Assembly (NCBI GenBank): GCA_022376925.1
Contig: JAIOJX010000028.1
Location: 70,707,001-70,771,000, forward strand
Length of the DNA stretch: 64,000 nt
Source of the DNA: Tragulus kanchil
Lineage: Eukaryota > Chordata > Mammalia > Artiodactyla > Tragulidae
Reading direction: 5' to 3'
The notes under the pieces were generated by a model. The model had not been told where the DNA came from, made no database searches, and was given only the letters and a program-made list of their open reading frames with translations. Below are positions 1-63,077 of the stretch, piece by piece. A program made the position numbers and the translations under genes. The stretch's first letter is position 1; each line of letters begins with the position of its first letter.

Positions 1-223
1 GGATCCAGGACTACACAGCTCCTCTCCTTCACCGTTGTTTCACCATGACTACTGCTTCAGGATGCTTTAATTAATGACTGTTCTTTTCCTAGAAAGCAAA
101 TAAATAAGAAAGAGAAAAGGCTTTATTAAATTCTTATTATTTATGGTTGTTATACATAAAGTCCATTTGAGTTTGAAAAAATTACTGTCAATCAAAAATA
201 AATATCTGGTGTGAAAATTAGCA

Positions 224-432
224 GGGCTTCACTGATGGCTCAGTGGTAAAGAATCTGTCTGTCAAAACAGAAAACGTGGGTTCCCTAGGTTGAGAAGAGA
301 CCCTGAGAGTGGAATGGCTACCCACTCCAGTATTCTTGCCTGTGGAATCCCATGGACAGAGAAAACTAGTAGGCTATAGACCAGGAAGTGGCAAAGGAGT
401 TGGACACAATTTAGCAACTAAGCAATAACAAT
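224..432 (+). mobile_element. Bov-tA SINE, copy A
   Basis: It begins with a diverged tRNA-like head (GGGCTTCACTGATGGCTCAG). This continues into the Bov-A body, with CCACTCCAGTATTCTTGCC and a diverged form of the usual AGTCGGACACGACTGAGC end. The family is ruminant-specific and non-autonomous, mobilised by BovB. It is about full length but clearly diverged, so an old insertion. Confidence 0.88.
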
Positions 433-1096
433 GAAAATGAATACCTTGAGCTGAGACTGTCAAAAGTCTTTGAACTAATGAGCCTTTGCAGGGAGCACAG
501 TATTCAGAATAGTTTAAAATACGCAAACATTGCATGAGGAGATTCATAAAGCTGTAGAATTATTCTAAGCCTGAACAAAATGTGTCTGAACTTTAAAGGG
601 ATTTAGCTATTAATTTGTAAGTGTTGAACATAGTTGACATTTCAAATTGAATTGTTACTGAAATAATCACATCAAATCTCTTGGTTAAATGTTTAAAATA
701 GGATCCATAAAATATGCATGTTACCAAATCAAGGCAAAGGGAATTTCTTCAAAATATATGATTCTTATTTAGATAAAATGTTAGATGACTTTTGATTAGA
801 AGTAAAATCATCTCTTGAGTGTGAGCTGCATTTATTCATCAAAGAAAATTTGAGTGTACGTAATGGAAGGGTTTATGCAGTGTTTATTGTATGTCGATTC
901 CCTGTGAAGAAACAAGTTTAAAAGTTTTAAAACTCATTTCTGATGTCTCATGACTACTATGGTGAAAAACCACTGTTTCAAAGCAGTTTTGCATGTCAGT
1001 AATATTTCCCAAGGTCAAATGTCTTGAAATCATTCCTACCAAGTATTTTTTCCCCTCTCTCATTCTTGGAGTTGCTGTTATCTCTCCTCTCAGGGA
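433..1096. other. AT-rich spacer without recognised features
   Basis: No reading frame, RNA gene or repeat family that I can name. 433-1030 is repeated at 1529-2126. 1031-1096 is the join spacer of duplication 1. Confidence 0.6.
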
Positions 1097-1319
1097 GGAT
1101 CCAGGACTACACAGCTCCTCTCCTTCACCGTTGTTTCACCATGACTACTGCTTCAGGATGCTTTAATTAATGACTGTTCTTTTCCTAGAAAGCAAATAAA
1201 TAAGAAAGAGAAAAGGCTTTATTAAATTCTTATTATTTATGGTTGTTATACATAAAGTCCATTTGAGTTTGAAAAAATTACTGTCAATCAAAAATAAATA
1301 TCTGGTGTGAAAATTAGCA

Positions 1320-1528
1320 GGGCTTCACTGATGGCTCAGTGGTAAAGAATCTGTCTGTCAAAACAGAAAACGTGGGTTCCCTAGGTTGAGAAGAGACCCT
1401 GAGAGTGGAATGGCTACCCACTCCAGTATTCTTGCCTGTGGAATCCCATGGACAGAGAAAACTAGTAGGCTATAGACCAGGAAGTGGCAAAGGAGTTGGA
1501 CACAATTTAGCAACTAAGCAATAACAAT
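1320..1528 (+). mobile_element. Bov-tA SINE, copy B
   Basis: Same SINE as at 224-432, repeated by duplication 1. It is identical by eye, so it should not be counted as a second insertion. Confidence 0.88.
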
Positions 1529-2126
1529 GAAAATGAATACCTTGAGCTGAGACTGTCAAAAGTCTTTGAACTAATGAGCCTTTGCAGGGAGCACAGTATT
1601 CAGAATAGTTTAAAATACGCAAACATTGCATGAGGAGATTCATAAAGCTGTAGAATTATTCTAAGCCTGAACAAAATGTGTCTGAACTTTAAAGGGATTT
1701 AGCTATTAATTTGTAAGTGTTGAACATAGTTGACATTTCAAATTGAATTGTTACTGAAATAATCACATCAAATCTCTTGGTTAAATGTTTAAAATAGGAT
1801 CCATAAAATATGCATGTTACCAAATCAAGGCAAAGGGAATTTCTTCAAAATATATGATTCTTATTTAGATAAAATGTTAGATGACTTTTGATTAGAAGTA
1901 AAATCATCTCTTGAGTGTGAGCTGCATTTATTCATCAAAGAAAATTTGAGTGTACGTAATGGAAGGGTTTATGCAGTGTTTATTGTATGTCGATTCCCTG
2001 TGAAGAAACAAGTTTAAAAGTTTTAAAACTCATTTCTGATGTCTCATGACTACTATGGTGAAAAACCACTGTTTCAAAGCAGTTTTGCATGTCAGTAATA
2101 TTTCCCAAGGTCAAATGTCTTGAAAT

Positions 2127-2569
2127 ATGTTGTGTCTATATTTATTGTCACATTGAGTTGATAATGGCACATGGGTGAACACTGTATCACTTTGTTGCAT
2201 TTTTAATCTTGTATGCCTGCTTTCAACTCAGTTCTGAGCATGTGATACTAGTTGTTTGGTTATTGGTAAATACGTAAAGTTTATTTTTTAAATAAATCTA
2301 AATTTGTTAAATCAACTTGCTTTTTAAAAAAGTACATATAGATAAGTAATACGTACGGAACATAGATGTTCATAACCATAAACTGATTCTCTAGGACTGA
2401 TGTTTGAGAAGTAACTCTAAAATCTCTTATAGTAGATGTTCAATAAATATGTGTTGAATGAATGTATTAAAGTATCTTTTTAGAACTTTATTTTTCTAAT
2501 AATAGAATCCAGGAGAGAGTACTGCTAGTGTATGTATTTTTCGAGTTAATTCTTTGCATATATATTTTT
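2127..2569. other. AT-rich spacer with a possible L2/MIR tail
   Basis: Mostly unrecognised. At about 2430-2465 the string TTCAATAAATATGTGTTGAA followed by TGAATG resembles the common 3' end of L2/MIR-type elements, but too little remains to assign it firmly. Confidence 0.4.
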
Positions 2570-5071: not shown

Positions 5072-5577
5072 TGTTAGGGTGGTAGGCTATTAAAGGGTTA
5101 ACACAGCGGCCGGAGATTCCCCAGCACTAAATAGTCATAAGAAAAGGCCAGTTGTTAGGGTCAACACCGCGACCAGACTCCCGGCACCAAATCAGGGGGT
5201 CAGTTGCTTGCCTGCTGGCACCTGAGAGTCTCCTTAGACCTGCAATAAGGAGATAGCCTTGGCCATAAAAATTCCTCACAAACTGTCAAGAACTTCATAC
5301 CCCCAGCCTGCGGCCACCTCAAGGATAGTGGGCTCATCACTGGACTTCCCGCCAAGCTTAAACAAAGAACTCGTTTCTGTGCCTGCCCTGAGGGATCCTC
5401 CTCCCCTTTTCTCCTGCTCCCCTTTCCTCCCTAATAAAACCTCCTCGTCCCATCTCCGGGGCGCGATTTTCCTGGCCCATCTCTCGGACCGGACCTGTGG
5501 ATCTCGCCCGGGAACTCTTCCCAAATAAACTTCTTCCCTAACAGCTTGCAGCCCGCCGTGTCTTTGCGATTCTTACA
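5072..5577 (+). mobile_element. Solo LTR of a ruminant endogenous retrovirus, GC-rich
   Basis: It begins TGTTAGGGTGG and ends CGATTCTTACA, the TG...CA form of an LTR, about 506 bp. AATAAA signals lie in CCCTAATAAAACC (about 5430) and CCCAAATAAACTT (about 5522), followed by a GC-rich R/U5-like end. The flanks read CATGT before and TATGT after, a possible but imperfect target-site duplication. Local GC is far above the surroundings. The two opposite-strand frames over it (5259-5528) are LTR shadows, not genes. ERV class I is likely; subfamily not assigned. Confidence 0.75.
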
Positions 5578-7455
5578 TATGTATATTATGTATATAGAGA
5601 AAGAGAGATAAGGGGGTGGTCTTTACTGAAACTCTAAGGCAGGTATTTCCATGTAATTATTTCAATGTCATTAAAAGTCAGAGAAAGTGAGAGCTTTTCT
5701 AAAGTTAGGAGGAATTCTAGAAATTTTGCCACCTTGCTTAGGAAAGGAGCTCTAACTGTTCATTAGGGATTTCCCCAAATAGTATCAATTTTGTAGTCCT
5801 GTAAACACAGTGAAGTGTTTCTGGCAAAGTGAACATCTATTTTGTATTAAATATAATATAAAAATGAGTTTTTAAAATATGCTTTTTAATTGCTTACTCA
5901 GAGTTTGAATGTTTTAAAGTAGTTACTAATAAGGTGTGCTTTATAATTATTAACTATTATTATAATTCAACATGTAATTGAATAATGAGAAAAATAAGGT
6001 ACATACTACTAACATATTTTTATATGTAATAACAGTGTTTCTAAGGAGTGTGACCTCCTGTTCCTCCAGCATCCCTGGCTCTTTCACACCCTGTGCTCTT
6101 GGTCTTACTCATCCTCTTACTGTCATGTCCTACAATGGATGTAGCTTGATTGACTCTCCTTGTTTCCAACCACATGTCAGGAAAACCTTCCTTGATTGTA
6201 TGATCTAAAAGTGCTCCTGCCTCACTACTCATTACTTCATTGTATCTTTTGATTTCCTTTCACAACTCAGATTATCATAACACAGCGGCCGGAGATTCCC
6301 CAGCACTAAATAGTCATAAGAAAAGGCCAGTTGTTAGGGTCAACACCGCGACCAGACTCCCGGCACCAAATCAGGGGGTCAGTTGCTTGCCTGCTGGCAC
6401 CTGAGAGTCTCCTTAGACCTGCAATAAGGAGATAGCCTTGGCCATAAAAATTCCTCACAAACTGTCAAGAACTTCATACCCCAGCCTGCGGCCACCTCAA
6501 GGATAGTGGGCTCATCACTGGACTTCCCGCCAAGCTTAAACAAAGAACTCGTTTCTGTGCCTGCCCTGAGGGATCCTCCTCCCCTTTTCTCCTGCTCCCC
6601 TTTCCTCCCTAATAAAACCTCCTCGTCCCATCTCCGGGGCGCGATTTTCCTGGCCCATCTCTCGGACCGGACCTGTGGATCTCGCCCGGGAACTCTTCCC
6701 AAATAAACTTCTTCCCTAACAGCTTGCAGCCCGCCGTGTCTTTGCGATTCTTACATATGTATATTATGTATATAGAGAAAGAGAGATAAGGGGGTGGTCT
6801 TTACTGAAACTCTAAGGCAGGTATTTCCATGTAATTATTTCAATGTCATTAAAAGTCAGAGAAAGTGAGAGCTTTTCTAAAGTTAGGAGGAATTCTAGAA
6901 ATTTTGCCACCTTGCTTAGGAAAGGAGCTCTAACTGTTCATTAGGGATTTCCCCAAATAGTATCAATTTTGTAGTCCTGTAAACACAGTGAAGTGTTTCT
7001 GGCAAAGTGAACATCTATTTTGTATTAAATATAATATAAAAATGAGTTTTTAAAATATGCTTTTTAATTGCTTACTCAGAGTTTGAATGTTTTAAAGTAG
7101 TTACTAATAAGGTGTGCTTTATAATTATTAACTATTATTATAATTCAACATGTAATTGAATAATGAGAAAAATAAGGTACATACTACTAACATATTTTTA
7201 TATGTAATAACAGTGTTTCTAAGGAGTGTGACCTCCTGTTCCTCCAGCATCCCTGGCTCTTTCACACCCTGTGCTCTTGGTCTTACTCATCCTCTTACTG
7301 TCATGTCCTACAATGGATGTAGCTTGATTGACTCTCCTTGTTTCCAACCACATGTCAGGAAAACCTTCCTTGATTGTATGATCTAAAAGTGCTCCTGCCT
7401 CACTACTCATTACTTCATTGTATCTTTTGATTTCCTTCACAACTCAGATTATCAT
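5099..7455. repeat. Tandem near-identical duplication 2 of 23
   Basis: Copy A is 5099-6277 and copy B is 6278-7455, offset 1179 falling to 1178. The copies abut with no spacer. Differences are one C lost in the run near 5300 and one T lost near the end. Each copy holds the LTR from its 28th base plus about 700 bp of 3' flank. Confidence 0.96.
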
Positions 7456-7815: not shown

Positions 7816-8591
7816 GATGTCACTCAAATGTCACTCTGTGGGAGAATAAAAGGTATTTTACATAATTGGTATAGTAACATTAACTGTTTCTCAGGAAATG
7901 TTAGTATGGTGATGAGTTTAAATTACCGTAGTGTTTTTACCCTAAAATAATTGTTTGGGCATTTTGAAAAATAATTTATAAATATCCATGGGAATGTTGT
8001 GTGCATGTTATGACCATTGTGCATGTGTTTTGAAATAGAAAATAGTTTGGGGGCTACTACTCAAAGTTAATTTTGCGGGATAACTACGCTGCAATTTTAT
8101 TGAGGGGAGAGAAGGTGACCAGTGTTTCTTTGTGTTCACAGTGCCTTGTGACTATGATTTCAAAGTTGTCTGTCAAATGATGGAATCAATTAATGAAATA
8201 GATAAATGGTATAATTTAACTTGTATACCAAGTTCCTGTGACATATTAATTATTAATTGATAGAACTCACTTTGATAGTCTAGAACTTTAAAGGGTAATT
8301 ATGTTGATTACTTTCTACCAAATAGCCAACATTAATTTGGACATCTCCCATTAGGAAAATAGGAACAGATCCAGTCTTCATTGATGATTCCAACAAGTTG
8401 GGATTTTCCTGCATGGATGCTGTGGTTTATAACAACTTCATCATTTTTTCCACACTCCATGTGTACACCACTGTTCTTTCTTCAGCTTGCTATTCTTTTC
8501 ACTTTCTACTACTGCTTACTCCTTTAGTAGAAATAATTGATTAAAGCAGTTTTATTTAAGAGTTTGTCTTTTCCCACCAGCATTTAGGAAC
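7816..8591. other. Non-coding spacer
   Basis: No gene or named repeat recognised. 8421-8591 is the start of duplication 3. Confidence 0.5.
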
Positions 8592-9003
8592 TGTTATGGG
8601 TTGAATTGTGTCCTCTATAAAGATGATGAAATACTAATCCCCAGTACCAGTGAATGTGATTTTTTTCAGAAATAGGGGTTTTGCAGATAATCAAATCAAG
8701 ATGAGGTCGTTACGATGGGCTAAAATGCAATATGACTGGTATCTTTATAAGAAAGGGATTAGGACACAGAGACAGAGACACACTGAGGGAAGAAAATGTG
8801 AAGACACAAGGATAACACCATGTGTAAGGAACTAGGAGGGAGGCATGGAACAGATTTTCCCTTACAACTCTTAGGAGAAATCAACCCTAAAGACACTTTT
8901 ATTTCAGACCTCTAGTCTCTAGAACTATGAGACAATACATTTTTTGAAGTATCAGTTACCCAGTTTGTGATATATCGTATTGGAAGCCCTAGGAAATAAA
9001 TAA
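8592..9003 (+). mobile_element. MLT1-type LTR (ERVL-MaLR), copy A
   Basis: It starts TGTTATGGGTTGAATTGTGT and proceeds through the family's GCAATATGACTGGTATCTTT, AGGCATGGAACAGATTTTCC and ACCCAGTTTGTGATA blocks. It ends at GGAAGCCCTAGGAAATAA. Nearly full length and old. It explains the 61-residue frame at 8650-8835. Confidence 0.88.
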
Positions 9004-11175
9004 AGGGACAGAAGCTAACAGAGAATCTTGGATTAGATGATAGTAACTGATCGGTATAGCTTAAAAATAGTCAGTTAATTATTAAAGCTGTATATAGAAA
9101 ATTATGTGTCAATTAAAGTAATTTATAAATAGTTCATTTTTATATAATTTATTGTAGACAGTGTTGAAAAGAATTTCAGGAAATAGAATTTGTTCGCTAT
9201 CGGTTGCAACTTTTGCCTGAATGTCAGCTATTATCAAAGACTACTTAATCTAACCTTAGATTTTTCCCATTCGGCCTGATACCAATCGGTACTTAAATTA
9301 ATCACGACTTTTTTCTCAGGTTCAGGAGCCTACTGTGATATGTGTTTTGCTCACAGCGTGTGAGTCATCTACTCCAGGCTTCAGATTAACCTTGACATCA
9401 AAAGCGCTGTAACTTCTTGCATCATAGTGAAGTTTCCTTTTTCTGACTTTTTTGTGTCTTTGCTCCACAGCTGTTGTGAGTCCCGGGAATCTGTGAGCCC
9501 ACGCTTGTATTCTTTTCACTTTCTAAAAACTCCATTTTTGCCTTGGACTGCCTGTGGTTTATAACAACTTCATCATTTTCCACACTCCATGTGTACACCA
9601 CTGTTCTTTCTTCAGCTTGCTATTCTTTTCACTTTCTACTACTGCTTACTCCTTTAGTAGAAATAATTGATTAAAGCAGTTTTATTTAAGAGTTTGTCTT
9701 TTCCCACCAGCATTTAGGAACTGTTATGGGTTGAATTGTGTCCTCTATAAAGATGATGAAATACTAATCCCCAGTACCAGTGAATGTGATTTTTTTCAGA
9801 AATAGGGGTTTTGCAGATAATCAAATCAAGATGAGGTCGTTACGATGGGCTAAAATGCAATATGACTGGTATCTTTATAAGAAAGGGATTAGGACACAGA
9901 GACAGAGACACACTGAGGGAAGAAAATGTGAAGACACAAGGATAACACCATGTGTAAGGAACTAGGAGGGAGGCATGGAACAGATTTTCCTTACAACTCT
10001 TAGGAGAAATCAACCCTAAAGACACTTTTATTTCAGACCTCTAGTCTCTAGAACTATGAGACAATACATTTTTTGAAGTATCAGTTACCCAGTTTGTGAT
10101 ATATTGTATTGGAAGCCCTAGGAAATAAATAAAGGGACAGAAGCTAACAGAGAATCTTGGATTAGATGATAGTAACTGATCGGTATAGCTTAAAAATAGT
10201 CAGTTAATTATTAAAGCTGTATATAGAAAATTATGTGTCAATTAAAGTAATTTATAAATAGTTCATTTTTATATAATTTATTGTAGACAGTGTTGAAAAG
10301 AATTTCAGGAAATAGAATTTGTTCGCTATCGGTTGCAACTTTTGCCTGAATGTCAGCTATTATCAAAGACTACTTAATCTAACCTTAGATTTTTCCCATT
10401 CGGCCTGATACCAATCGGTACTTAAATTAATCACGACTTTTTTCTCAGGTTCAGGAGCCTACTGTGATATGTGTTTTGCTCACAGCGTGTGAGTCATCTA
10501 CTCCAGGCTTCAGATTAACCTTGACATCAAAAGCGCTGTAACTTCTTGCATCATAGTGAAGTTCCCTCTTCTATTTATGCTCTCTTCTGTTATTGTTCTT
10601 TCTTTTTTATAGAAGAAGCTGCTCTCATTTTAACATATGGCACTCCACACCACATATGACTCAAACCAAGAAACTATAGCTGTTTATTTTTATATCTGCT
10701 ATATGAGATCACCTCCCTCCATCAGAACAGGGAATCTGTGGCAGCCCAACTGTACACTCTTCATCAGACTCATTTATTCACTCTTTTCTGTATTTCTTTT
10801 TGATCGGTGTCATATGAAATGAAGAGAATTTCTATATTAAACTAGTGCTGTGCAACCACTCTAATCTTCTTCCTTTGAATATTATCTGTTGTGTTTTTTT
10901 TTCAGTCTGATCATTTAAAATAATTGTTAAGCAAAAGAGCTTTAAAGAAAATAATACATAATTATGTCCTCAAATCAAGGCTAACCCAAATATCTCTGGG
11001 ATTTTTAACCATTAGAATGATTTCTTTACTTGAAGGTAGATTCTACTTGAGTGAGATCCAAGAAAAGGTGACAAGAGATATGAGCAAAGTTTGCTTTTCA
11101 ATTCTGTTACTCACTTTTCTGGTCTCACTATATTATTAGATTGGTCACCAGAATTCACTGTAATCTAAGACTAGT
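9004..11175. other. Non-coding sequence around the MaLR LTRs
   Basis: Outside the second MLT1 copy no gene is seen. 9193-9434, 10322-10563 and 11435-11676 are three copies of the same 242 bp, because duplications 3 and 4 overlap. Small frames at 10637-11139 recur 1113 bp downstream. Confidence 0.55.
9722..10132 (+). mobile_element. MLT1-type LTR, copy B
   Basis: Same LTR repeated by duplication 3, differing by about one substitution and a one-base indel. Confidence 0.88.
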
Positions 11176-12515
11176 GCTATGGCCTAAATATTTGTGTCTC
11201 CTCAGAATTCATATGTTGAAGTCCTGTTCCCAGTATGATAGCATTTGGAGGTGAGCCCTTTGGAAAATAAGTGGGAGTTGAGGGTGGAGTACTCATGAAT
11301 GGGACTAGTGCCCTTGTACGAAGTGGGAGAGCTGATGCTCTCCACTCGAGAGAGCCTTCACCAAGAACCCCAGTATGCTGGCACCTTGATCTCCTGTTCA
11401 GTGAGCCCTTTGGAAACATTAGATTTTTCCAAATTTCGCTATCGGTTGCAACTTTTGCCTGAATGTCAGCTATTATCAAAGACTACTTAATCTAACCTTA
11501 GATTTTTCCCATTCGGCCTGATACCAATCGGTACTTAAATTAATCACGACTTTTTTCTCAGGTTCAGGAGCCTACTGTGATATGTGTTTTGCTCACAGCG
11601 TGTGAGTCATCTACTCCAGGCTTCAGATTAACCTTGACATCAAAAGCGCTGTAACTTCTTGCATCATAGTGAAGTTCCCTCTTCTATTTATGCTCTCTTC
11701 TGTTATTGTTCTTTCTTTTTTATAGAAGAAGCTGCTCTCATTTTAACATATGGCACTCCACACCACATATGACTCAAACCAAGAAACTATAGCTGTTTAT
11801 TTTTATATCTGCTATATGAGATCACCTCCCTCCATCAGAACAGGGAATCTGTGGCAGCCCAACTGTACACTCTTCATCAGACTCATTTATTCACTCTTTT
11901 CTGTATTTCTTTTTGATCGGTGTCATATGAAATGAAGAGAATTTCTATATTAAACTAGTGCTGTGCAACCACTCTAATCTTCTTCCTTTGAATATTATCT
12001 GTTGTGTTTTTTTTTCAGTCTGATCATTTAAAATAATTGTTAAGCAAAAGAGCTTTAAAGAAAATAATACATAATTATGTCCTCAAATCAAGGCTAACCC
12101 AAATATCTCTGGGATTTTTAACCATTAGAATGATTTCTTTACTTGAAGGTAGATTCTACTTGAGTGAGATCCAAGAAAAGGTGACAAGAGATATGAGCAA
12201 AGTTTGCTTTTCAATTCTGTTACTCACTTTTCTGGTCTCACTATATTATTAGATTGGTCACCAGAATTCACTGTAATCTAAGACTAGTGCTATGGCCTAA
12301 ATATTTGTGTCTCCTCAGAATTCATATGTTGAAGTCCTGTTCCCAGTATGATAGCATTTGGAGGTGAGCCCTTTGGAAAATAAGTGGGAGTTGAGGGTGG
12401 AGTACTCATGAATGGGACTAGTGCCCTTGTACGAAGTGGGAGAGAGCTGATGCCTCTCTCCACTCGGAGAGAGAGCCTTCACCAAGAACCCCAGTATGCT
12501 GGCACCTTGATCTCC
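10322..12515. repeat. Tandem near-identical duplication 4 of 23
   Basis: Copy A is 10322-11394 and copy B is 11435-12515, offset 1113, with a 40-bp spacer 11395-11434. The spacer contains a stray GTGAGCCCTTTGGAAA that echoes 11252-11268. The end of copy A has several small deletions relative to B, as expected of a poor-quality segment end. Confidence 0.95.
11176..11394 (+). mobile_element. MaLR-type LTR (MST/MLT-like), truncated copy A
   Basis: GCTATGGCCTAAATATTTGT, the TTCATATGTTGAAGTCCT block and the ACTCATGAATGGGACTAGTG block are typical of this class of old LTR. Cut off by the end of copy A. Confidence 0.7.
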
Positions 12516-12600
12516 CTTTCAGTCTCCCAAACTGTGAGACATATATCAGTGTTGTGTAAGCTACCCAGTCTCTATTATTCTAACAGCCCAATCTGAGATA
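12289..12600 (+). mobile_element. MaLR-type LTR (MST/MLT-like), complete copy B
   Basis: Same element as at 11176. Here it runs on through CCCAAACTGTGAGAC and CTACCCAGTCTCTATTATTC to the expected end. Exact subfamily not assigned. Confidence 0.72.
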
Positions 12601-12651: not shown

Positions 12652-12775
12652 GTTTTGCTTTAAGATCATTTACACAACCGTATTATCATGCTAGAAAAAT
12701 GATACTTTACTCTTACTGGACAAGGAAAGTTGTGTCTAATAATTTCTACAAATACCTTGGCAATCAGTTAACCAT
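12652..12775 (+). repeat. Diverged local repeat, unit 1
   Basis: About 124 bp that recurs at 13306-13428 with roughly 10% difference by eye. Shared blocks include ATTATCATGCTAGAAAAATG and GGAAAGTTGTGTC. Its divergence sets it apart from the near-identical duplications, so this is a genuine older repeat. Confidence 0.85.
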
Positions 12776-13175
12776 TTTTTTACAGTTTTTAAAATTCATT
12801 TTTATTTATATTTTATGTTATAAATTAATTCTAAGGTTCACCATGAGAGTATGAAACATGAAGAGTCATTCAATAATGTTACAAAATGCTTATTATGCCA
12901 TTATAGAAAACAACCCCCAGGGAAGTCTTCACCAAGACTAGGCTAGAGCTTGTCAGGCTAAGCTTGCAATCAAATAGAGCACTTTAAAGCAACCCTACCT
13001 CTGAAAGAAGATTTTCCTTTTTCCACAGTTTTCACGGTGTGCTTAAACAATACTCCTTCAGCATCTGAGTGGGGATTTAGAATTCTTTGAGTAATCTCAT
13101 GTCAACATTATAATTCTCTCTGGAGCTTTGGGAGGGGCTAGTTCTATCAACAGTCCCACTCTGTTTTGTCACAAT

Positions 13176-13300: not shown

Positions 13301-13305
13301 TCTTT

Positions 13306-38123: not shown

Positions 38124-38133
38124 TTTCCCCTTC

Positions 38134-49590: not shown

Positions 49591-50525
49591 ATTGTACTAT
49601 GAGAGACAATGGAGTTAGTAAGAAGGAACTAAGGCAGATGAGTTAGATATCCTAGAGCACATATTCTAAATATTTTCAGGAAACTGTGTTTTTGTTCTTA
49701 ACATTAACAAAGTGATATGCCAAGAATCATTTATTATTTTCTACCTCTCTATTTGGATTAAAATACTTATATATTTTAGACATTATAATTTGTTATTTTC
49801 TCTCCTTATTCTATAATTTTGTCACAAAGTGTAATTGCAACTTGTGAAAAATGCTTCCTTTGGGTAAATGCCCAGGTAGCTACATATGTTTGCCCATCTT
49901 GTCTCTCCTTTGCAGTCTGTCAGTGGATTAATTTTGCTAAAAAATATATAACTTTTCTATTCAAAACTTTACAAATGCACATGAATTTATTATGTGAAAA
50001 GGACAGCATTTTATAAGGTAAAGAAAAGGTGAATTTCTCAGTGACTGGTTATACACTTCTAGGTGACCACCTAAAAATATAATGTATATCATACCTTACA
50101 TTAGAGAAAATTCCAGATGGAGTACATAATAAAATAAAAATAAATGAATATAAAAATTAAAATTAAAAGAAGTTATATATGGAAAACTTCATTTTTTAGA
50201 AATCTAAGATTGTGAAAAGCTTTCTGACATTGGTATAATAACCAGAAGCTATAAAACAGAAGATAAATTGGATGACATGCAATTCTTCTTAATCTATAAG
50301 TCTAAAAGGACTATAAGCAAAAGCAAACAAAAAACTGAGAAAATTTCTGAATCTAATTTTAAAAACAGAAGAGCATTTTCCCAAAAACACACTTTCTGTA
50401 AATGAATAAGGAAAGCATTGGAAATCCAATAGAAAAATAGTCAGAAAATATGAACAGTCAAAAGCTTGAAATTATCTCCCCAAATAACAAAGGTAATAAT
50501 GATTAGTTATTCTTTAAATGTTTCC

Positions 50526-50696
50526 CAGGTACCAGGGTACTGGGACCTTATTAAATGTCTTATTTAATGTACACAACTGATTTTAGTGATGGTAAGCATA
50601 GAGAAACTAGTTAACTTGTTCAGATCACATAGCTATTGTGTGATAAGGCTGAGACTTACTCCCAGGCCCACCTGTTCTAGATATAGCACATTTTTC
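50526..50696 (-). mobile_element. MIR SINE, copy B
   Basis: Same MIR as 49420-49590, displaced 1106 bp. Confidence 0.75.
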
Positions 50697-52017
50697 ATTG
50701 TACTATGAGAGACAATGGAGTTAGTAAGAAGGAACTAAGGCAGATGAGTTAGATATCCTAGAGCACATATTCTAAATATTTTCAGGAAACTGTGTTTTTG
50801 TTCTTAACATTAACAAAGTGATATGCAAAGAATCATTTATTATTTTCTACCTCTCTATTTGGATTAAAATACTTATATATTTTAGACATTATAATTTGTT
50901 ATTTTCTCTCCTTATTCTATAATTTTGTCACAAAGTGTAATTGCAACTTGTGAAAAATGCTTCCTTTGGGTAAATGCCCAGGTAGCTACATATGTTTGCC
51001 CATCTTGTCTCTCCTTTGCAGTCTGTCAGTGGATTAATTTTGCTAAAAAATATATAACTTTTCTATTCAAAACTTTACAAATGCACATGAATTTATTATG
51101 TGAAAAGGACAGCATTTTATAAGGTAAAGAAAAGGTGAATTTCTCAGTGACTGGTTATACACTTCTAGGTGACCACCTAAAAATATAATGTATATCATAC
51201 CTTACATTAGAGAAAATTCCAGATGGAGTACATAATAAAATAAAAATAAATGAATATAAAAATTAAAATTAAAAGAAGTTATATATGGAAAACTTCATTT
51301 TTTAGAAATCTAAGATTGTGAAAAGCTTTCTGACATTGGTATAATAACCAGAAGCTATAAAACAGAAGATAAATTGGATGACATGCAATTCTTCTTAATC
51401 TATAAGTCTAAAAGGACTATAAGCAAAAGCAAACAAAAAACTGAGAAAATTTCTGAATCTAATTTTAAAAACAGAAGAGCATTTTCCCAAAAACACACAC
51501 TTTCTGTAAATGAATAAGGAAAGCATTGGAAATCCAATAGAAAAATAGTCAGAAAATATGAACAGTAACTCAGGAAATGAAATATAATCAACTGTTAAAG
51601 ACAGAAAGCAAAATGGTAAATGCATGCATAAAATACACATTAATATATAATTTTAACTATTAGTTTGTTAGAAAACACAGTGTGTGGTAGCACACTGTGC
51701 TTACAAGGATGCAAAGAAACATGCTATCCCACAGTGAAGGAGGAAAAAGGAGTATAGCTTTAATGAAGGCCATTTGGCAGTATATTTTGAAATATAAAGT
51801 AAATTTTTAATGTAAAATAATTCCACTACTGGGAAATCATTCCTTACATTGACTCATGCACAAAGTTATTAATTACAACATTGTTTATGTTACCAAATAC
51901 TGTAAAAATGAGACTGTCTTTTCATCATTTGGAGTTAATGTATCTGTACAGTAAATAAAACATGACTATAAAAATGAGAACGATTATCTGCTTTAGTATG
52001 TAACAATCCCTAATAGT

Positions 52018-52044
52018 ATATAATATATATATATATATATAATA
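52018..52044. repeat. (AT)n run
   Basis: Short AT run, repeated at 53079-53105 in copy B of duplication 19. Confidence 0.85.
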
Positions 52045-52364
52045 TACAGAAATGTAAGAAGCCCAATAGTATATAGACTTCTAAAATTAGTTGAAAATGA
52101 GTTAAAACAGTTTCCATGTAATATATATTTATAATCATGCTGAATATCTATAAGGATTGGTTGACCCATGGAAAAAAAAATTGTAACAAAGAAGCATGGA
52201 TGAGAGTGAATGTTTTCAGTATAGATTCTTTAGTTCCTTCTGAGTTTTAAATCCTATGAATTTATTTCTTATTCAGAAACTAAATGAAGAAACAAGCTGA
52301 TAGCTTGTCAAAATAGGGTTACCAAGTAATCTAGTAGTTACCCTCCTGAGTATCTGCTCCAAGA

Positions 52365-52495
52365 GAAAGTAACACATATATCCACACACAATTTGTATAC
52401 AAATGTTTACAGCAACATTATCCAGAATAGTCAAGAGTGGAAACCACTGAAATGCGCATCAGCTGATGAATGGATAAGCATGAAGTGGCTGGACA
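52365..52495 (+). mobile_element. L1M 3' fragment, copy A
   Basis: CAAGAGAAAGTAACACATAT followed by TACAGCAACATTATCCAGAA and CAGCTGATGAATGGATAAGC are L1 ORF2-end blocks. Cut by the duplication edge. Confidence 0.78.
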
Positions 52496-53425
52496 AAAAA
52501 GTTTAATGAATTTCTGAATCTAATTTTAAAAACAGAAGAGCATTTTCCCAAAAACACACACTTTCTGTAAATGAATAAGGAAAGCATTGGAAATCCAATA
52601 GAAAAATAGTCAGAAAATATGAACAGTAACTCAGGAAATGAAATATAATCAACTGTTAAAGACAGAAAGCAAAATGGTAAATGCATGCATAAAATACACA
52701 TTAATATATAATTTTAACTATTAGTTTGTTAGAAAACACAGTGTGTGGTAGCACACTGTGCTTACAAGGATGCAAAGAAACATGCTATCCCACAGTGAAG
52801 GAGGAAAAAGGAGTATAGCTTTAATGAAGGCCATTTGGCAGTATATTTTGAAATATAAAGTAAATTTTTAATGTAAAATAATTCCACTACTGGGAAATCA
52901 TTCCTTACATTGACTCATGCACAAAGTTATTAATTACAACATTGTTTATGTTACCAAATACTGTAAAAATGAGACTGTCTTTTCATCATTTGGAGTTAAT
53001 GTATCTGTACAGTAAATAAAACATGACTATAAAAATGAGAACGATTATCTGCTTTAGTATGTAACAATCCCTAATAGTATATAATATATATATATATATA
53101 TAATATACAGAAATGTAAGAAGCCCAATAGTATATAGACTTCTAAAATTAGTTGAAAATGAGTTAAAACAGTTTCCATGTAATATATATTTATAATCATG
53201 CTGAATATCTATAAGGATTGGTTGACCCATGGAAAAAAAAATTGTAACAAAGAAGCATGGATGAGAGTGAATGTTTTCAGTATAGATTCTTTAGTTCCTT
53301 CTGAGTTTTAAATCCTATGAATTTATTTCTTATTCAGAAACTAAATGAAGAAACAAGCTGATAGCTTGTCAAAATAGGGTTACCAAGTAATCTAGTAGTT
53401 ACCCTCCTGAGTATCTGCTCCAAGA

Positions 53426-53740
53426 GAAAGTAACACATATATCCACACACAATTTGTATACAAATGTTTACAGCAACATTATCCAGAATAGTCAAGAGTG
53501 GAAACCACTGAAATGCGCATCAGCTGATGAATGGATAAGCATGAAGTGGCTGGACAGAGAGGGGAATAAGGAGTGATTGTTAATGAATATGAAATTTCTT
53601 TTTGGATGATGATGATGTTCTAGCATTTAGTTGTGGTGATTGTTCCACAATGTCGTTAATATACTAAAAACTATTAAATATTGAACTACACAGTTAATTG
53701 AATATGTAAATTATATCTCAATAAAACTGTTACAATAAAT
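53426..53740 (+). mobile_element. L1M 3' end, copy B with 3' UTR
   Basis: Same start as 52365, continuing into GAGTGATTGTTAATGAATAT, CTAAAAACTATTAAATATTG and ATTATATCTCAATAAAACTG, the L1M 3' end with its AATAAA. About 250 bp of the usual sequence between GGATAAGC and the 3' UTR is deleted. The 3' UTR part is repeated from 54646. Confidence 0.82.
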
Positions 53741-55714
53741 TTATAATTTACCAACTGTTTACAGGATAAAGCCATTTATTCTTCAGAGAGTATATTAGGA
53801 CCTCTAAGCACTGTGTAGTCTCTTAGAATACAGAATAACGGAGACATGGTGTCTGTCCTGAATGGGGTAGCTGCTGAAATAGGGAGAAAAACATAGTAAA
53901 GCTACAGAAAAGTTTTATAATAAAGGAACATACACAATATTTGAAAGCAGACAGTTAGCAAAGCTTCTTGGGGCAGCTGGAGAAGGCTTCAATAGAGGAG
54001 GTAACATTTTATCTTTCCTTAACGTGTAAGGAGAATCTTTCCAGGTGTTGAGCAAAAGTGTGTGAATTGAAGATAAGCTCATGAAAAAACGAGTAGCTTG
54101 TTGGATTGCTGCTCCCACACAGGAGACTGGGAAGTGGGGATGGTGGATAAGGCCACATTGGTCAACAGAAGTCAGATTGCAAAGGGCCTTGTGTACTTTG
54201 CCAGAAATTAAAGCTTCATTTGTATGACATAGGGAAGTATGGGTAGTTTAAAAAAGAAGTAAACCTTTGTTTTAGAAATCTTTTTGTGGCAGTATGGATA
54301 ACAGTTTGGAAAGAGGTGAGATTAAAAGAATGGAGACCCTCAAGGAAGATACTGCCTTTTGCCCTGAGGAGAAAGGAGGAGGAACTGATTCTGAGATTGC
54401 AGAAATGGTTGCACAGTTGGATTTGGACATTTTAGTGGAAGAAGACTGGACAACTCACCAAAGGTGTGGCTAGGGAAAGGGAAGAGTATTTCAGTTTGAC
54501 TCGATAAATAAGGGTGGGGTTACCAAAGAAAGTAGGCACAGGCAATTTACCATCCTTGTGTCTTCAAATCCACCAAATGCCTTGCTAGTCCCAGGTACTT
54601 AAAGGGTGAGTGAATGCATGGATAAGTAAACTAGTCTATACATATAGGAGTGATTGTTAATGAATATGAAATTTCTTTTTGGATGATGATGATGTTCTAG
54701 CATTTAGTTGTGGTGATTGTTCCACAATGTCGTTAATATACTAAAAACTATTAAATATTGAACTACACAGTTAATTGAATATGTAAATTATATCTCAATA
54801 AAACTGTTACAATAAATTTATAATTTACCAACTGTTTACAGGATAAAGCCATTTATTCTTCAGAGAGTATATTAGGACCTCTAAGCACTGTGTAGTCTCT
54901 TAGAATACAGAATAACGGAGACATGGTGTCTGTCCTGAATGGGGTAGCTGCTGAAATAGGGAGAAAAACATAGTAAAGCTACAGAAAAGTTTTATAATAA
55001 AGGAACATACACAATATTTGAAAGCAGACAGTTAGCAAAGCTTCTTGGGGCAGCTGGAGAAGGCTTCAATAGAGGAGGTAACATTTTATCTTTCCTTAAC
55101 GTGTAAGGAGAATCTTTCCAGGTGTTGAGCAAAAGTGGGTGAATTGAAGATAAGCTCATAGAAAAACGAGTAGCTTGTTGGATTGCTGCTCCCACACAGG
55201 AGACTGGGAAGTGGGGATGGTGGATAAGGCCACATTGGTCAACAGAAGTCAGATTGCAAAGGGCCTTGTGTACTTTGCCAGAAATTAAAGCTTCATTTGT
55301 ATGACATAGGGAAGTATGGGTAGTTTAAAAAAGAAGTAAACCTTTGTTTTAGAAATCTTTTTGTGGCAGTATGGATAACAGTTTGGAAAGAGGTGAGATT
55401 AAAAGAATGGAGACCCTCAAGGAAGATACTGCCTTTTGCCCTGAGGAGAAAGGAGGAGGAACTGATTCTGAGATTGCAGAAATGGTTGCACAGTTGGATT
55501 TGGACATTTTAGTGGAAGAAGACTGGACAACTCACCAAAGGTGTGGCTAGGGAAAGGGAAGAGTATTTCAGTTTGACTCGATAAATAAGGGTGGGGTTAC
55601 CAAAGAAAGTAGGCACAGGCAATTTACCATCCTTGTGTCTTCAAATCCACCAAATGCCTTGCTAGTCCCAGGTACTTAAAGGGTGAGTGAATGCATGGAT
55701 AAGTAAACTAGTCT
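53569..55714. repeat. Tandem near-identical duplication 20 of 23
   Basis: Copy A is 53569-54637 and copy B is 54646-55714, offset 1077, spacer 8 bp. One T/G difference (AAGTGTGTGA versus AAGTGGGTGA) lies near 54060/55137. Confidence 0.96.
53790..54460 (+). mobile_element. Old mammalian interspersed repeat, family unassigned, copy A
   Basis: GGAGAAGGCTTCAATAGAGG, the GCAAAGGGCCTTGTGTACTT block and the GAAATCTTTTTGTGGCAGTA block follow in the order of a familiar old repeat, but I cannot name it with confidence. Repeated at 54867-55537. It accounts for the 67-residue minus-strand frames. Confidence 0.5.
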
Positions 55715-57873
55715 CATACCATACTATTTTCAAGATTCTGTATATATTAATACCATATGTTTATATAAGTGAATATTGACAATTAAATGACATTTTTATT
55801 GACGTACCTTTTCTATTGGGGGAAAAATCTGCCTGAAGATCTAAGAAGCAAGTAGTAATGAGAATAACTGCTTGCACGGTTTCATCGGGACTTCTCACAC
55901 TGTTTTTTAAGCCAGAGTTTCTGCTTCCATTCCTATTTCCTTCTATAATCAATTCTGCTTGAATGCCAGTCTGTTTTTATGTTTGCTATGTACCACTTTC
56001 CTCGTTGGACTCCTTTATTCAAGGAAGACTGTATGTTGTTGTCCTGTTGCCTACTCTAGCAAATCTATCCTTCTCTACTTTTACTAAAAGACCTTTCATA
56101 GGCTGAGCCTATTTTCCTTCTCCACCTCCTGTGAGGATGATTCTTTACAACTGACTGAACCTCATGTCTGTTCCCTGTATAAATTGTCATAACCCCTATT
56201 TGTATGTTTTTAATCATGCTGTTTCTGTTCTGGAATGAACATTTCCATTCTTATTCAGAGTCCTTTCATGCCATTGCCTTCCGTGAAGATTTCTTTGATT
56301 CTGACAGAGTAGAAAGGCTGAATCTGTAGAGAGTAAATAAAGTATATGCTACATATTATTTTACTATGTATTATCTTTTGGTATTCCTCATTGCTTTTCT
56401 CTATTTTATTTCCTCAAATAGATTCTAAGTCTTTCAGTCTAGGGGATCTCCTTTAGTTGCTTAGCAAGACATTCCCTTTAAAGTAAATTATGTGTTGTAT
56501 ATTTTAAACTTTCTTATTTTAAAACCTGTATTCTCAGGTTTTCCAATAAAACCACATGATACTTTTCTAAATGCCAGGACTATTATTGTACATAAGAGAC
56601 CTAAGTTTCCATCACTAAGTTTGGCCTCATTCAGAACATAGCAGGATGCCTTTGCTTGTCTCTGAAGCCTTTATAATTCTAATGTACTTCCCAACTGATT
56701 TGACTCGATAAATAAGGGTGGGGCTAGGGAAAGGGAAGAGTATTTCAGTTTGACTCGATAAATAAGGGTGGGGTTACCAAAGAAAGTAGGCACAGGCAAT
56801 TTACCATCCTTGTGTCTTCAAATCCACCAAATGCCTTGCTAGTCCCAGGTACTTAAAGGGTGAGTGAATGCATGGATAAGTAAACTAGTCTCATACCATA
56901 CTATTTTCAAGATTCTGTATATATTAATACCATATGTTTATATAAGTGAATATTGACAATTAAATGACATTTTTATTGACGTACCTTTTCTATTGGGGGA
57001 AAAATCTGCCTGAAGATCTAAGAAGCAAGTAGTAATGAGAATAACTGCTTGCACGGTTTCATCGGGACTTCTCACACTGTTTTTTAAGCCAGAGTTTCTG
57101 CTTCCATTCCTATTTCCTTCTATAATCAATTCTGCTTGAATGCCAGTCTGTTTTTATGTTTGCTATGTACCACTTTCCTCGTTGGACTCCTTTATTCAAG
57201 GAAGACTGTATGTTGTTGTCCTGTTGCCTACTCTAGCAAATCTATCCTTCTCTACTTTTACTAAAAGACCTTTCATAGGCTGAGCCTATTTTCCTTCTCC
57301 ACCTCCTGTGAGGATGATTCTTTACAACTGACTGAACCTCATGTCTGTTCCCTGTATAAATTGTCATAACCCCTATTTGTATGTTTTTAATCATGCTGTT
57401 TCTGTTCTGGAATGAACATTTCCATTCTTATTCAGAGTCCTTTCATGCCATTGCCTTCCGTGAAGATTTCTTTGATTCTGACAGAGTAGAAAGGCTGAAT
57501 CTGTAGAGAGTAAATAAAGTATATGCTACATATTATTTTACTATGTATTATCTTTTGGTATTCCTCATTGCTTTTCTCTATTTTATTTCCTCAAATAGAT
57601 TCTAAGTCTTTCAGTCTAGGGGATCTCCTTTTAGTTGCTTAGCAAGACATTCCCTTTAAAGTAAATTATGTGTTGTATATTTTAAACTTTCTTATTTTAA
57701 AACCTGTATTCTCAGGTTTTCCAATAAAACCACATGATACTTTTCTAAATGCCAGGACTATTATTGTACATAAGAGACCTAAGTTTCCATCACTAAGTTT
57801 GGCCTCATTCAGAACATAGCAGGATGCCTTTGCTTGTCTCTGAAGCCTTTATAATTCTAACTGGTACTTCCCA
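55545..57873. repeat. Tandem near-identical duplication 21 of 23
   Basis: Copy A is 55545-56693 and copy B is 56722-57873, offset 1177. The join 56694-56721 contains an extra TGACTCGATAAATAAGGGTG, which belongs about 50 bp into copy B. It overlaps duplications 20 and 22. Confidence 0.94.
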
Positions 57874-59875
57874 TATCATGCAGGGCAAACCTGGGTAAAT
57901 TGCATGCTAGGTCAAAGCCACCATGGTGTTACCCACCACAGGAGGCAGTAGGAAAGAAGTGTTAGTGAAAAGTCAGTAGAGAGCACAGTAGGAAAAGGAA
58001 CACAGGAAGACAATATGCTGGTTATTTTCAATAGTTAAAACCAACTGGATAGCAAGTGTTCCCATTAAAAATCAATCAATGGATCTCCAAAGAGCTTAGT
58101 CAGCTTGAACCATTGATATTTGCAGATTTTATTCATTCTAACTCTAGTACAGGATTGGACAGGAAGTGACTCTGAAGGAGTTTCAGGAAATGGTACAAAC
58201 TTTATCACATTTGTAGACCCTGTATGCCTATTTCTTCAGAACATGACTCCATTGGCAAGAAAGGAGGATACCACATAGGAAGAGAATACCGTGAGCAGCT
58301 CAAAATGCACGTGTAATGCTGCATCATATAAGCTAAAGGGAGTATTTTTTCTATAAACCTAACCACCCATTCCGTGTATTTCTGACAAAAGCCACAGTTT
58401 GAAAGGCTATAGGCAGAAACTTTACCACCTTACAAGGTATCTGTTTCATTTTTGACTATTTTGTTCTGCAATCAGTACTCCCCAGACTATCCTAGGAATG
58501 CGTGGATAAGGTAAACATTCACAGCAGTGGATGCCCCTATTTTTGTATGTTTTTAATCATGCTGTTTCTGTTCTGGAATGAACATTTCCATTCTTATTCA
58601 GAGTCCTTTCATGCCATTGCCTTCCGTGAAGATTTCTTTGATTCTGACAGAGTAGAAAGGCTGAATCTGTAGAGAGTAAATAAAGTATATGCTACATATT
58701 ATTTTACTATGTATTATCTTTTGGTATTCCTCATTGCTTTTCTCTATTTTATTTCCTCAAATAGATTCTAAGTCTTTCAGTCTAGGGGATCTCCTTTTAG
58801 TTGCTTAGCAAGACATTCCCTTTAAAGTAAATTATGTGTTGTATATTTTAAACTTTCTTATTTTAAAACCTGTATTCTCAGGTTTTCCAATAAAACCACA
58901 TGATACTTTTCTAAATGCCAGGACTATTATTGTACATAAGAGACCTAAGTTTCCATCACTAAGTTTGGCCTCATTCAGAACATAGCAGGATGCCTTTGCT
59001 TGTCTCTGAAGCCTTTATAATTCTAACTGGTACTTCCCATATCATGCAGGGCAAACCTGGGTAAATTGCATGCTAGGTCAAAGCCACCATGGTGTTACCC
59101 ACCACAGGAGGCAGTAGGAAAGAAGTGTTAGTGAAAAGTCAGTAGAGAGCACAGTAGGAAAAGGAACACAGGAAGACAATATGCTGGTTATTTTCAATAG
59201 TTAAAACCAACTGGATAGCAAGTGTTCCCATTAAAAATCAATCAATGGATCTCCAAAGAGCTTAGTCAGCTTGAACCATTGATATTTGCAGATTTTATTC
59301 ATTCTAACTCTAGTACAGGATTGGACAGGAAGTGACTCTGAAGGAGTTTCAGGAAATGGTACAAACTTTATCACATTTGTAGACCCTGTATGCCTATTTC
59401 TTCAGAACATGACTCCATTGGCAAGAAAGGAGGATACCACATAGGAAGAGAATACCGTGAGCAGCTCAAAATGCACGTGTAATGCTGCATCATATAAGCT
59501 AAAGGGAGTATTTTTTCTATAAACCTAACCACCCATTCCGTGTATTTCTGACAAAAGCCACAGTTTGAAAGGCTATAGGCAGAAACTTTACCACCTTACA
59601 AGGTATCTGTTTCATTTTTGACTATTTTGTTCTGCAATCAGTACTCCCCAGACTATCCTAGGAATGCGTGGATAAGGTAAACATTCACAGCAGTGGATGT
59701 CGGGTGTGGTTCTGACTCTTTTTGGGACCTGAACTTCTTAATATACTCCTAGTTGTTTCTAGAAATTTCCTAGGTTAACATGAATATGTTCTGAGGACTG
59801 TTTTTTGTGTCTTTAGTATTACAACCAACACTTCTTTTCCTTGGTCTGGCTTCCTGTGTTGATATTCCAGGCTCT
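55715..59875. other. Non-coding stretch made mostly of duplications 21 and 22
   Basis: No named repeat or gene recognised. 56193-56686, 57370-57863 and 58534-59030 are the same sequence three times. The 63-residue minus-strand frame occurs at 55761 and 56938. Single-copy sequence resumes at 59700. Confidence 0.5.
57370..59699. repeat. Tandem near-identical duplication 22 of 23
   Basis: Copy A is 57370-58533 and copy B is 58534-59699, offset 1164 then 1166 (two extra T). The copies abut exactly after GCAGTGGATG. Confidence 0.96.
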
Positions 59876-60145
59876 AAATGTTTAATCACTTAGTCATGTC
59901 TGACTCTTCGGGACTCCATGGATTGCAGCACTCCAGGCTTCCCCATCCTTCATTATCTCCCAGCATTTGCTCAAACTCAGGTACACCGAGTCGCTGATGT
60001 TATCCAACCATCTTATCCTCTGTTGCCTCCTTTCCCAGTCTTTCCCAGAATCAGGCTCTTTTCCAATAAGTCAGCTCTTCATATCAGGTCACCAAAGTAC
60101 TGAAGCTTCAGCTTCAGCATCAGTCCTTCCACTGAATGTTCAGGT
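59876..60145 (-). mobile_element. BovB (RTE) LINE 3'-region fragment
   Basis: Plus-strand TTAGTCATGTCTGACTCTTC, CTCCATGGATTGCAGCA, CTTATCCTCTGTTGCCTCC, CTTTTCCAATAAGTCAGCTC and AAGCTTCAGCTTCAGCATCA are, in order, the reverse of the BovB 3' part. BovB is a ruminant hallmark acquired horizontally in deep history. Only about 270 bp remain. The frames at 59918 and 59967 are antisense to it. Confidence 0.87.
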
Positions 60146-60894
60146 TTGGGCAAGTACCAAATGTGGGAGCAATAATTCCAGTGGCAACTGTAACATTCCT
60201 GGGAATGATCATAGGGCAACCAGAGTGACAGATGACAGGTCATACTCAAAACTATCTCTTTATCCTGTTGTACTTGGTAAAGTAGTTACGAAGAAGCAAC
60301 TAGTGATTTGTCATCAACTTTTCCTATTAACTTATGAGATGATTGAAAACAAGAACTAATCAATGAGCAACTGTAAGCTTCTGTCCTCAATCAAAATTAT
60401 GCTGTATTCACTTTTCTTTGGATGAGTGTTTTTATTCTCTTTGAGGGAAACCTGTTGGGTCGAACACACAAATGGACCTTTTGCAGTCTAGTTCTCTATA
60501 GATGTGAATGGCTAAAATTTAGGGTGAAGTCTGTTTTGGCTTAAGGTAGAATCTGTATATATAAAATAAAGTTTTGGTATAAGATAAGTTTTGGTATAAA
60601 ACAGAACTGTCTCCCGTGGTCCTACTTTACCCCAGTGGAATTTAGCAGAATAAAGCTTCTAATCCTGCAGGGAAGGCAAAGAAGTGTTGGAACATTTTCA
60701 AGTAAAATTTTAAAGAGGCATGGAAATGTTACTATGAAGCTCTTGTAGTGAAAAAGTGAAGATGCTAACATCTGCTACTTTTTCAACTTTTATAATGTAC
60801 AGAGGATTTGTGTGTGTGTGTTCAGAAACTAGGAACAAAGTTGCAAGAAGTGGAGACCTTGGAGACCAGAATGTGAAGATGTTTAATAGCATTT
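60146..60894. other. Non-coding spacer
   Basis: No gene seen. AGTTTTGGTATAA occurs twice about 20 bp apart near 60570-60598. Confidence 0.5.
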
Positions 60895-61549
60895 ACTCAT
60901 TAACTGCAGAATATTTATTGGGCAAGGACAAGACACAGTGACAGATGGTGACAACAGTAAACTGGATGGATAAATGCTCTTGACCTTATGAAATTTATGT
61001 GAGCTAGTGGAGGACAGAAAAAAAGTTTTAATTATTCAAATTGTCAGTGATAGTCATGGTAAGTACAGTTTCAACCAAAGTCATTGTTAGCACTGTAAGG
61101 GTTGGAGGATAGGTGGGATCATGTTAAGAACCATAGTCTAGATTAACAAGAAATGAAATTCTTGGGGATAATATTGAAATATTCTTTATTGTATTTTTTC
61201 CTTTCGGAGAAATAAAAGTTTAACTCACTTTTTATTTTAGTTTTTAAGTATATAGGATACTTTACATATTCGCTGCATTTAAATTAACACAACCCAGTGA
61301 AAAAGTTGGAATTATCTTCATGCATAGGGATTAAAATGGTTAAAATATTTGCAGGTGAGTTGGGTAATGGTCACAGGTTCCTCAGACATGGTCATGGGTT
61401 GTGCCTCTGTGATGGTTAATAGACCACTTACACAGATCTTCTCAGAGAAGATTCATGCAACTTCCCACAGTTACAGAGCTAAATAGCAGTTGGAAATTGA
61501 ACTCAATTCCATGTGATTGTTGCGAAAAGAATTTTACATGTTCAGTGAC

Positions 61550-61730
61550 ATTGTTCCATATTTCATTTATTTTTATAATTCTTGTTGATTAGATTTAGGA
61601 ACCCAGAAATGTTAGGTCACCAGTGTAAATTCTTCATTTTATAGAAGAGGAAACTGAAATTCAAAGAAGTACTGTGACTTTCTGCGACTCTTACTGAAAC
61701 CAGAGTTGTCATTAAGTTACGTATGAAGTA
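61550..61730 (-). mobile_element. MIR SINE, copy A
   Basis: TTCATTTTATAGAAGAGGAA followed by ACTGAAATTCAAAGAAGTAC and CTGTGACTTTCTGCGACTC follows the reverse MIR consensus. A second MIR-like 3' piece lies at about 61455-61530 (CACAGTTACAGAGCTAAATA). Repeated at 62637-62817. Confidence 0.72.
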
Positions 61731-62636
61731 ATACCACCCGGTGAACTTCTATAGCTCTTAGTGAAAACGTCCCCAAACTCAGGAATTCAAGACTATAAGT
61801 TATACACCTAGAGGTTTTCATTATGAACAGATTTAGAGGTTATGTTCAGTAGCAATAACCCATTTACAAATGTAGACTTTTATATGAAGAAATTTAATTC
61901 TTATTCATGAATTTCTTCTTTGCATGTTATAAGATGTATCATTTGAATTGAGTTTTAAGATGTATTATTTTTGTGTTCATCTGTTGTGAGAAAATAGCAT
62001 TTACTCATTAACTGCAGAATATTTATTGGGCAAGGACAAGACACAGTGACAGATGGTGACACTTGTAAAGCACCTTATGAAATTTATGTGAGCTAGTGGA
62101 GGACAGAAAAAGTTTTAATTATTCAAATTGTCAGTGATAGTCATGGTAAGTACAGTTTCAACCAAAGTCATTGTTAGCACTGTAAGGGTTGGAGGATAGG
62201 TGGGATCATGTTAAGAGCCATAGTCTAGATTAACAAGAAATGAAATTCTTGGGGATAATATTGAAATATTCTTTATTGTATTTTTTCCTTTCGGAGAAAT
62301 AAAAGTTTAACTCACTTTTTATTTTAGTTTTTAAGTATATAGGATACTTTACATATTCGCTGCATTTAAATTAACACAACCCAGTGAAAAAGTTGGAATT
62401 ATCTTCATGCATAGGGATTAAAATGGTTAAAATATTTGCAGGTGAGTTGGGTAATGGTCACAGGTTCCTCAGACATGGTCATGGGTTGTGCCTCTGTGAT
62501 GGTTAATAGACCACTTACACAGATCTTCTCAGAGAAGATTCATGCAACTTCCCACAGTTACAGAGCTAAATAGCAGTTGGAAATTGAACTCAATTCCATG
62601 TGATTGTTGCGAAAAGAATTTTACATGTTCAGTGAC

Positions 62637-62817
62637 ATTGTTCCATATTTCATTTATTTTTATAATTCTTGTTGATTAGATTTAGGAACCCAGAAATGTT
62701 AGGTCACCAGTGTAAATTCTTCATTTTATAGAAGAGGAAACTGAAATTCAAAGAAGTACTGTGACTTTCTGCGACTCTTACTGAAACCAGAGTTGTCATT
62801 AAGTTACGTATGAAGTA
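62637..62817 (-). mobile_element. MIR SINE, copy B
   Basis: Same MIR as 61550-61730, displaced about 1087 bp. Confidence 0.72.
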
Positions 62818-63077
62818 ATACCACCCGGTGAACTTCTATAGCTCTTAGTGAAAACGTCCCCAAACTCAGGAATTCAAGACTATAAGTTATACACCTAGAG
62901 GTTTTCATTATGAACAGATTTAGAGGTTATGTTCAGTAGCAATAACCCATTTACAAATGTAGACTTTTATATGAAGAAATTTAATTCTTATTCATGAATT
63001 TCTTCTTTGCATGTTATAAGATGTATCATTTGAATTGAGTTTTAAGATGTATTATTTTTGTGTTCATCTGTTGTGAG

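Follow-up and report, generated by a model that had tools for sequence, protein, structure and literature searches.

Serial 1.1-kb duplications in a 64-kb window of a Tragulus kanchil assembly are very probably unmerged overlaps

The stretch of Tragulus kanchil DNA analyzed here (the window: 64,000 bp of GenBank assembly GCA_022376925.1, contig JAIOJX010000028.1, positions 70,707,001 to 70,771,000) contains 23 adjacent direct duplications of about 1.1 kb, one after another, and raises the question of whether these copies exist in the animal or were produced when the genome was assembled. To our knowledge, no process makes many unrelated duplications side by side that share both size and age. 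The results presented below indicate that the serial duplications are not a real biological feature and almost certainly an assembly error. Judged from the sequence, all 23 very probably are false and stem from unmerged overlaps, regardless of the program step at fault.

Comparison of the whole window with itself by BLASTN recovered every one of the 23 tandem duplications listed in the initial annotation. The copies of a pair aligned over 1,014-1,206 bp at 98.0-100% identity, so that all 23 pairs are near-identical copies of one sequence within one assembly, as expected of the homotype class of false duplication. The offset between copies ranged from 1,004 to 1,203 bp (mean 1,131.0, standard deviation 48.6, n = 23), in agreement with the range and mean given in that annotation, and the offsets sum to 26,013 bp. 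Its join coordinates were identical to the starts of the second copies in 15 of 23 cases and within 16 bp of them in the other 8. Between the end of the first copy and the start of the second, 10-105 bp of intervening sequence was found at 15 of the 23 joins; at the remaining 8, the alignments were at most 6 bp apart or overlapped by at most 9 bp. No N character occurs anywhere in the window.

Cutting the window at every join gave 22 complete pieces of 1,771-5,181 bp, each of which begins with a repeat of roughly the final 1.1 kb of its predecessor. The self-comparison also uncovered ten stretches present in three copies (119-506 bp each), absent from the initial annotation, which arise because neighboring overlaps overlap each other, some pieces being shorter than two overlaps. 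Counting plus-strand matches of at least 100 bp and at least 90% identity gave 34 rows, namely the 23 serial pairs, 10 three-copy matches, and one unrelated 126-bp pair. When the letters of the window were shuffled 20 times, none of the resulting sequences contained a repeat reaching both 100 bp and 90% identity.

The three-copy stretches allow the odd copy to be named at each difference, and truly triplicated DNA should put about a third of its private differences on the interior copy. We labeled the copies by their place in the piece (A, 3' end; B, interior; C, 5' start) and compared them over the ten stretches (3,220 columns). The odd one among the 39 differing columns was A in 16, B in 1, and C in 22; once merged into 27 events, the counts were 9, 1, and 17 (P = 0.00026 under a 1:1:1 expectation). 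Events in the end copies lay in the half nearest their own piece end in 23 of 26 cases (8/9 for A and 15/17 for C). When 20 columns were trimmed from each side, 15 events were left, 4 in A, 1 in B, and 10 in C (P = 0.019). Private differences are thus not spread equally over the copies, the interior copy accounting for just one of the 27 events (one of 15 when trimmed), whereas the copies of a true duplication should share them about equally. The end-bound differences therefore argue directly against real copies.

The nature of the differences points the same way. Over 25,562 aligned columns, we counted 88 differences, 60 of them insertions or deletions (indels), half of which (30/60) fall in homopolymer runs, and 28 of them substitutions, made up of 13 transitions and 15 transversions. 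With indels outnumbering substitutions and transitions not outnumbering transversions, this spectrum is unlike mammalian mutation and speaks against true duplication. Slightly more than half of the differences (45/88) lie within 50 bp of the overlap ends, the rate being 1.96% there versus 0.18% elsewhere, and none of 20,000 permutations was as extreme. That the differences are consensus or read errors and not mutations is indicated indirectly by the excess of indels at piece ends and by the odd events falling in an end copy in 26 of 27 cases (14 of 15 trimmed). At 100 bp or more from the overlap ends, 16 substitutions and 14 indels are left; all 14 indels are in homopolymers, and some of the 16 substitutions may be allelic. 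Three pairs (1, 9, and 19) are free of differences.

Of the 15 joins with an insert of 10 bp or longer, 14 were examined by comparing the insert with control places; pair 1 was left out, as what precedes it falls beyond the window. In pairs 3, 4, 5, 9, 15, and 21 (6 of the 14), the insert resembles the surroundings of the adjacent piece ends better than all 246-260 control places, and we read the inserts as poorly resolved consensus at piece ends. The description of the duplications as uncollapsed overlaps in the initial annotation is hence backed by the end-bound private differences, by the indel-rich differences crowding the segment ends, and by the six join inserts that resemble nearby segment ends, all three of which agree badly with tandem duplication in an animal.

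The window is tiled by pieces that overlap by a near-constant length, with differences bound to piece ends and nearly clean interiors. It is very probably a chain of separately made pieces of ~1.8-5.2 kb, each sharing ~1.1 kb with the next, the pieces being presumably consensus units of a noisy-long-read assembly and each segment being probably present in a single copy in the animal. The step that aligns and trims the shared part was very probably inactive, so that this part was written twice and, where pieces are short, three times.

Which assembler could have left such pieces can be approached from their sizes. In a wtdbg-type layout, a node is made of four 256-bp bins, adjacent nodes overlap by at most one bin, and a consensus program joins the edges. 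Pieces that vary in length but do not fall below ~1.8 kb, and that overlap by a near-constant ~1.1 kb, suggest wtdbg-type layout edges; these may have shared one 4-bin node and been left unstitched. The shortest pieces, 7 of the 22, measure 1,771-1,891 bp and advance by 585-788 bp, values near the 7 bins (1,792 bp) and 3 bins (768 bp) that a pair of 4-bin nodes with one bin in common would give. We thus lean, with some reserve, toward wtdbg, wtdbg2, or a relative as the assembler, with edges sharing one node of four 256-bp bins (~1,024 bp). Short-read graph contigs, in which the overlap stays below ~130 bp, and Sanger reads, for which the pieces are too long, were dismissed on general grounds. 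A periodicity in piece length was best fitted at 234-245 bp; the signal is weak and shifts with the cut-off chosen, with P = 0.137, 0.031, and 0.009 within 230-282 bp and P = 0.224, 0.068, and 0.022 over a scan of 200-330 bp. Use of 256-bp bins together with homopolymer compression is described for wtdbg2 in the excerpted text of PMC9902641.

Several points weigh against unmerged overlaps or against the wtdbg version of them. The asymmetry between the three copies keeps its direction after trimming and is weaker, and local-alignment trimming accounts for some of the excess of differences near the ends of overlaps. The inserts of pairs 8 and 16 are borderline (10 of 254 and 8 of 245 controls scored at least as well), and those of pairs 6, 10, 12, 17, 18, and 19, 6 of the 14, fit no better than controls, of which 31/249 to 224/256 were as good. 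When the comparison was restricted to the bases immediately outside the copies, a stricter test, only 2 of 14 inserts gave a clear result, those of pairs 5 and 9 (1 and 4 of 200 controls did equally well or better). Early insert alignments were mostly negative, and 10 of the 15 inserts searched against the window by BLAST gave, beyond themselves, only short or weak matches. The mean overlap is ~107 bp above the 1,024-bp node, the bin-like period in piece lengths is only suggestive, and the fit to the wtdbg numbers was made post hoc, after the data had been seen. Among the literature matches listed, we found no report of such an artefact in wtdbg assemblies. Finally, the escape of 23 consecutive joins from stitching, with copies at least 98% alike, lacks an explanation.

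The alternative that survives best is itself a form of unmerged overlap, in which overlapping contigs would have been joined without merging during scaffolding or gap filling. Such joining would yield an identical local picture, and duplications beside gaps or linked by incorrect gap filling are described in the excerpted text of PMC9516828. However, the joins hold no runs of N, the overlap is near constant through 23 consecutive joins, the pieces are never shorter than ~1.8 kb, and chance meetings of contigs should produce overlaps of varying length. Joining of ordinary contigs is thus less likely, given the lack of N and the near-constant overlap, and we consider it an improbable version of the overlap account. 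The initial annotation had proposed that overlapping segments were concatenated without merging, and this part stands; scaffolding and gap filling, which it gave as examples, seem less likely than unstitched long-read consensus units.

A second alternative, the heterotype class, holds that the two parental haplotypes were falsely duplicated, one allele being placed behind the other at each join. The 16 substitutions at 100 bp or more from overlap ends occur at a rate compatible with allelic differences, and heterotype duplications were the larger type in the zebra finch and the platypus, though not in the hummingbird, of three older assemblies, according to the excerpts of PMC9516828. Nevertheless, pairs 1, 9, and 19 show no difference at all over 1,030, 1,067, and 1,048 bp, and allelic divergence leaves both the near-constant overlap length and the end-bound differences unaccounted for. 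On these three grounds (near-constant size, end-bound differences, and difference-free pairs), haplotype duplication was set aside as the main cause, and we regard it as very improbable. Heterotype duplication and unmerged overlaps are compatible and can coexist, as the consensus of each piece may carry either allele.

True serial tandem duplication in the animal genome, which is how the sequence as given presents it, was rejected on the interior copies with almost no private differences; it is scarcely credible, as is the burst of 23 real, young ~1.1-kb tandem duplications on a ruminant chromosome, by a replication process of fixed re-copying length, that it would take to give 23 unrelated neighboring segments one size and a similar age.

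The individual pairs, as delimited by the self-BLASTN alignments (strand given as "."), are located as follows. Pair 1 (1-2126) has copies at 1-1030 and 1097-2126, with no difference in 1,030 columns; its first copy is truncated by the window start, and its 66 intervening bp may simply continue the upstream sequence. Pair 2 (5099-7455) has copies at 5099-6278 and 6278-7455. The copies of pair 3 (8414-10567), at 8414-9438 and 9544-10567, are separated by 105 bp; those of pair 4 (10322-12523), at 10322-11402 and 11435-12523, by 32 bp; those of pair 5 (13564-15830), at 13564-14657 and 14740-15830, by 82 bp; and those of pair 6 (18268-20580), at 18268-19414 and 19435-20580, by 20 bp. Pair 7 (20933-23113) consists of 20933-22029 and 22022-23113. 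It is followed by pair 8 (22734-25029; copies 22734-23876 and 23887-25029, 10 bp between), pair 9 (24675-26834; copies 24675-25741 and 25768-26834, 26 bp between, no difference in 1,067 bp), and pair 10 (26646-28868; copies 26646-27750 and 27765-28868, 14 bp between).

In the middle of the window, pair 11 (30672-32689) has copies at 30672-31684 and 31676-32689, and pair 12 (32261-34619) at 32261-33433 and 33447-34619, the latter with 13 bp between. Pair 13 (35125-37369) comprises 35125-36239 and 36246-37369, and pair 14 (37378-39785) comprises 37378-38583 and 38581-39785. Intervening sequence is again present in pair 15 (42599-44883; copies 42599-43730 and 43753-44883, 22 bp), pair 16 (44473-46695; copies 44473-45552 and 45617-46695, 64 bp), pair 17 (46305-48673; copies 46305-47479 and 47496-48673, 16 bp), pair 18 (49362-51566; copies 49362-50458 and 50471-51566, 12 bp), and pair 19 (51448-53556; copies 51448-52495 and 52509-53556, 13 bp, no difference in 1,048 bp). 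Pair 20 (53566-55723) is formed by 53566-54644 and 54642-55723, pair 21 (55537-57873) by 55537-56693 and 56714-57873 with 20 bp between, and pair 22 (57370-59699) by 57370-58533 and 58534-59699. Pair 23 (60885-63077), with copies at 60885-61990 and 61993-63077, carries six indels of 1-8 bp, all within the first 135 bp of the overlap (60953-61019 versus 62061 onward), and at each of them the first copy is the longer.

Other content of the window was also explored. Tandem units of 50 bp occur at two loci, 18875-19113 (repeated at 20042-20280 through pair 6) and 41200-41369, which have words in common, such as GGGACTTGAACCCA and AACCCTG; as a guess, they are perhaps the internal array of a ruminant interspersed or long terminal repeat element. 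A direct repeat of 126 bp (12654-12779 and 13303-13427, 90.5% identity), unrelated to the serial duplications, perhaps represents two copies of one interspersed repeat. The longest stop-free frame, at 59904-60356 on the plus strand, spans 151 amino acids, has no Pfam match, and reads like what we take to be a translated common ruminant interspersed repeat. A motif that we presume to be that of a ruminant short interspersed nuclear element matched at 15,842, in agreement with a ruminant origin, and two shorter motifs, likewise presumed, matched on the minus strand at 14,627-14,628, 15,798-15,799, and 17,083; two further motifs had no match on either strand. No gene was identified by Rfam, which gave no match over the whole window at the gathering threshold, or by Pfam, which gave none at an expect value up to 0.01 for eight of the at least 30 reading frames in the window. 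A megablast search of the first 25 kb of the 64 kb against plasmids and phages gave no match.

The window is of interest as a caution on data quality. If the duplications are false, about 41% of the window (26,013 of 64,000 bp) would be spurious, and false tandem duplications would be carried over from such an assembly into gene models, copy-number calls, the dating of repeats, and any sequence model trained on it. No reads are needed to scan for the signature, which consists of a near-constant offset, clean interiors, and noisy ends of the pieces. As to scale, the window holds 23 such pairs in 64 kb, versus an average of 49 false duplications per Gb removed in the curation of 111 assemblies (PMC7794651), and curation in such projects is usually limited to a resolution of ~100 kb (PMC7794651).

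False duplications are a well-documented phenomenon; they have been split into heterotype and homotype classes, and gaps, unsupported connections, and reduced depth have been noted between false copies (excerpts of PMC9516828). A serial form was not described among the literature matches listed. A pipeline based on wtdbg2 also closes gaps using overlapping contig ends, the excerpted text reporting no artefact of this kind (PMC7247394), and another study names wtdbg2 as a tool and likewise does not report it (PMC7026727). The window resembles the homotype class in its under-collapsed, near-identical copies, which are ascribed in the excerpts of PMC9516828 to accumulated read errors, and in the lack of an allelic signal in at least three pairs; it differs in the serial arrangement of its copies, in their near-constant size of 1.1 kb, in their number (23 in 64 kb), and in that no N separates them. 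With the heterotype class, it shares near-identical copies inside one haploid assembly, but it is without consistent allelic divergence, and its differences are mostly at piece ends. As for wtdbg/wtdbg2 layout edges, the shared node is normally trimmed by the consensus program and the overlap in the window is ~10% over 1,024 bp, whereas an overlap near a 4-bin node, variable pieces, and a floor near the length of two one-bin-overlapping nodes are all features that the window has in common with them.

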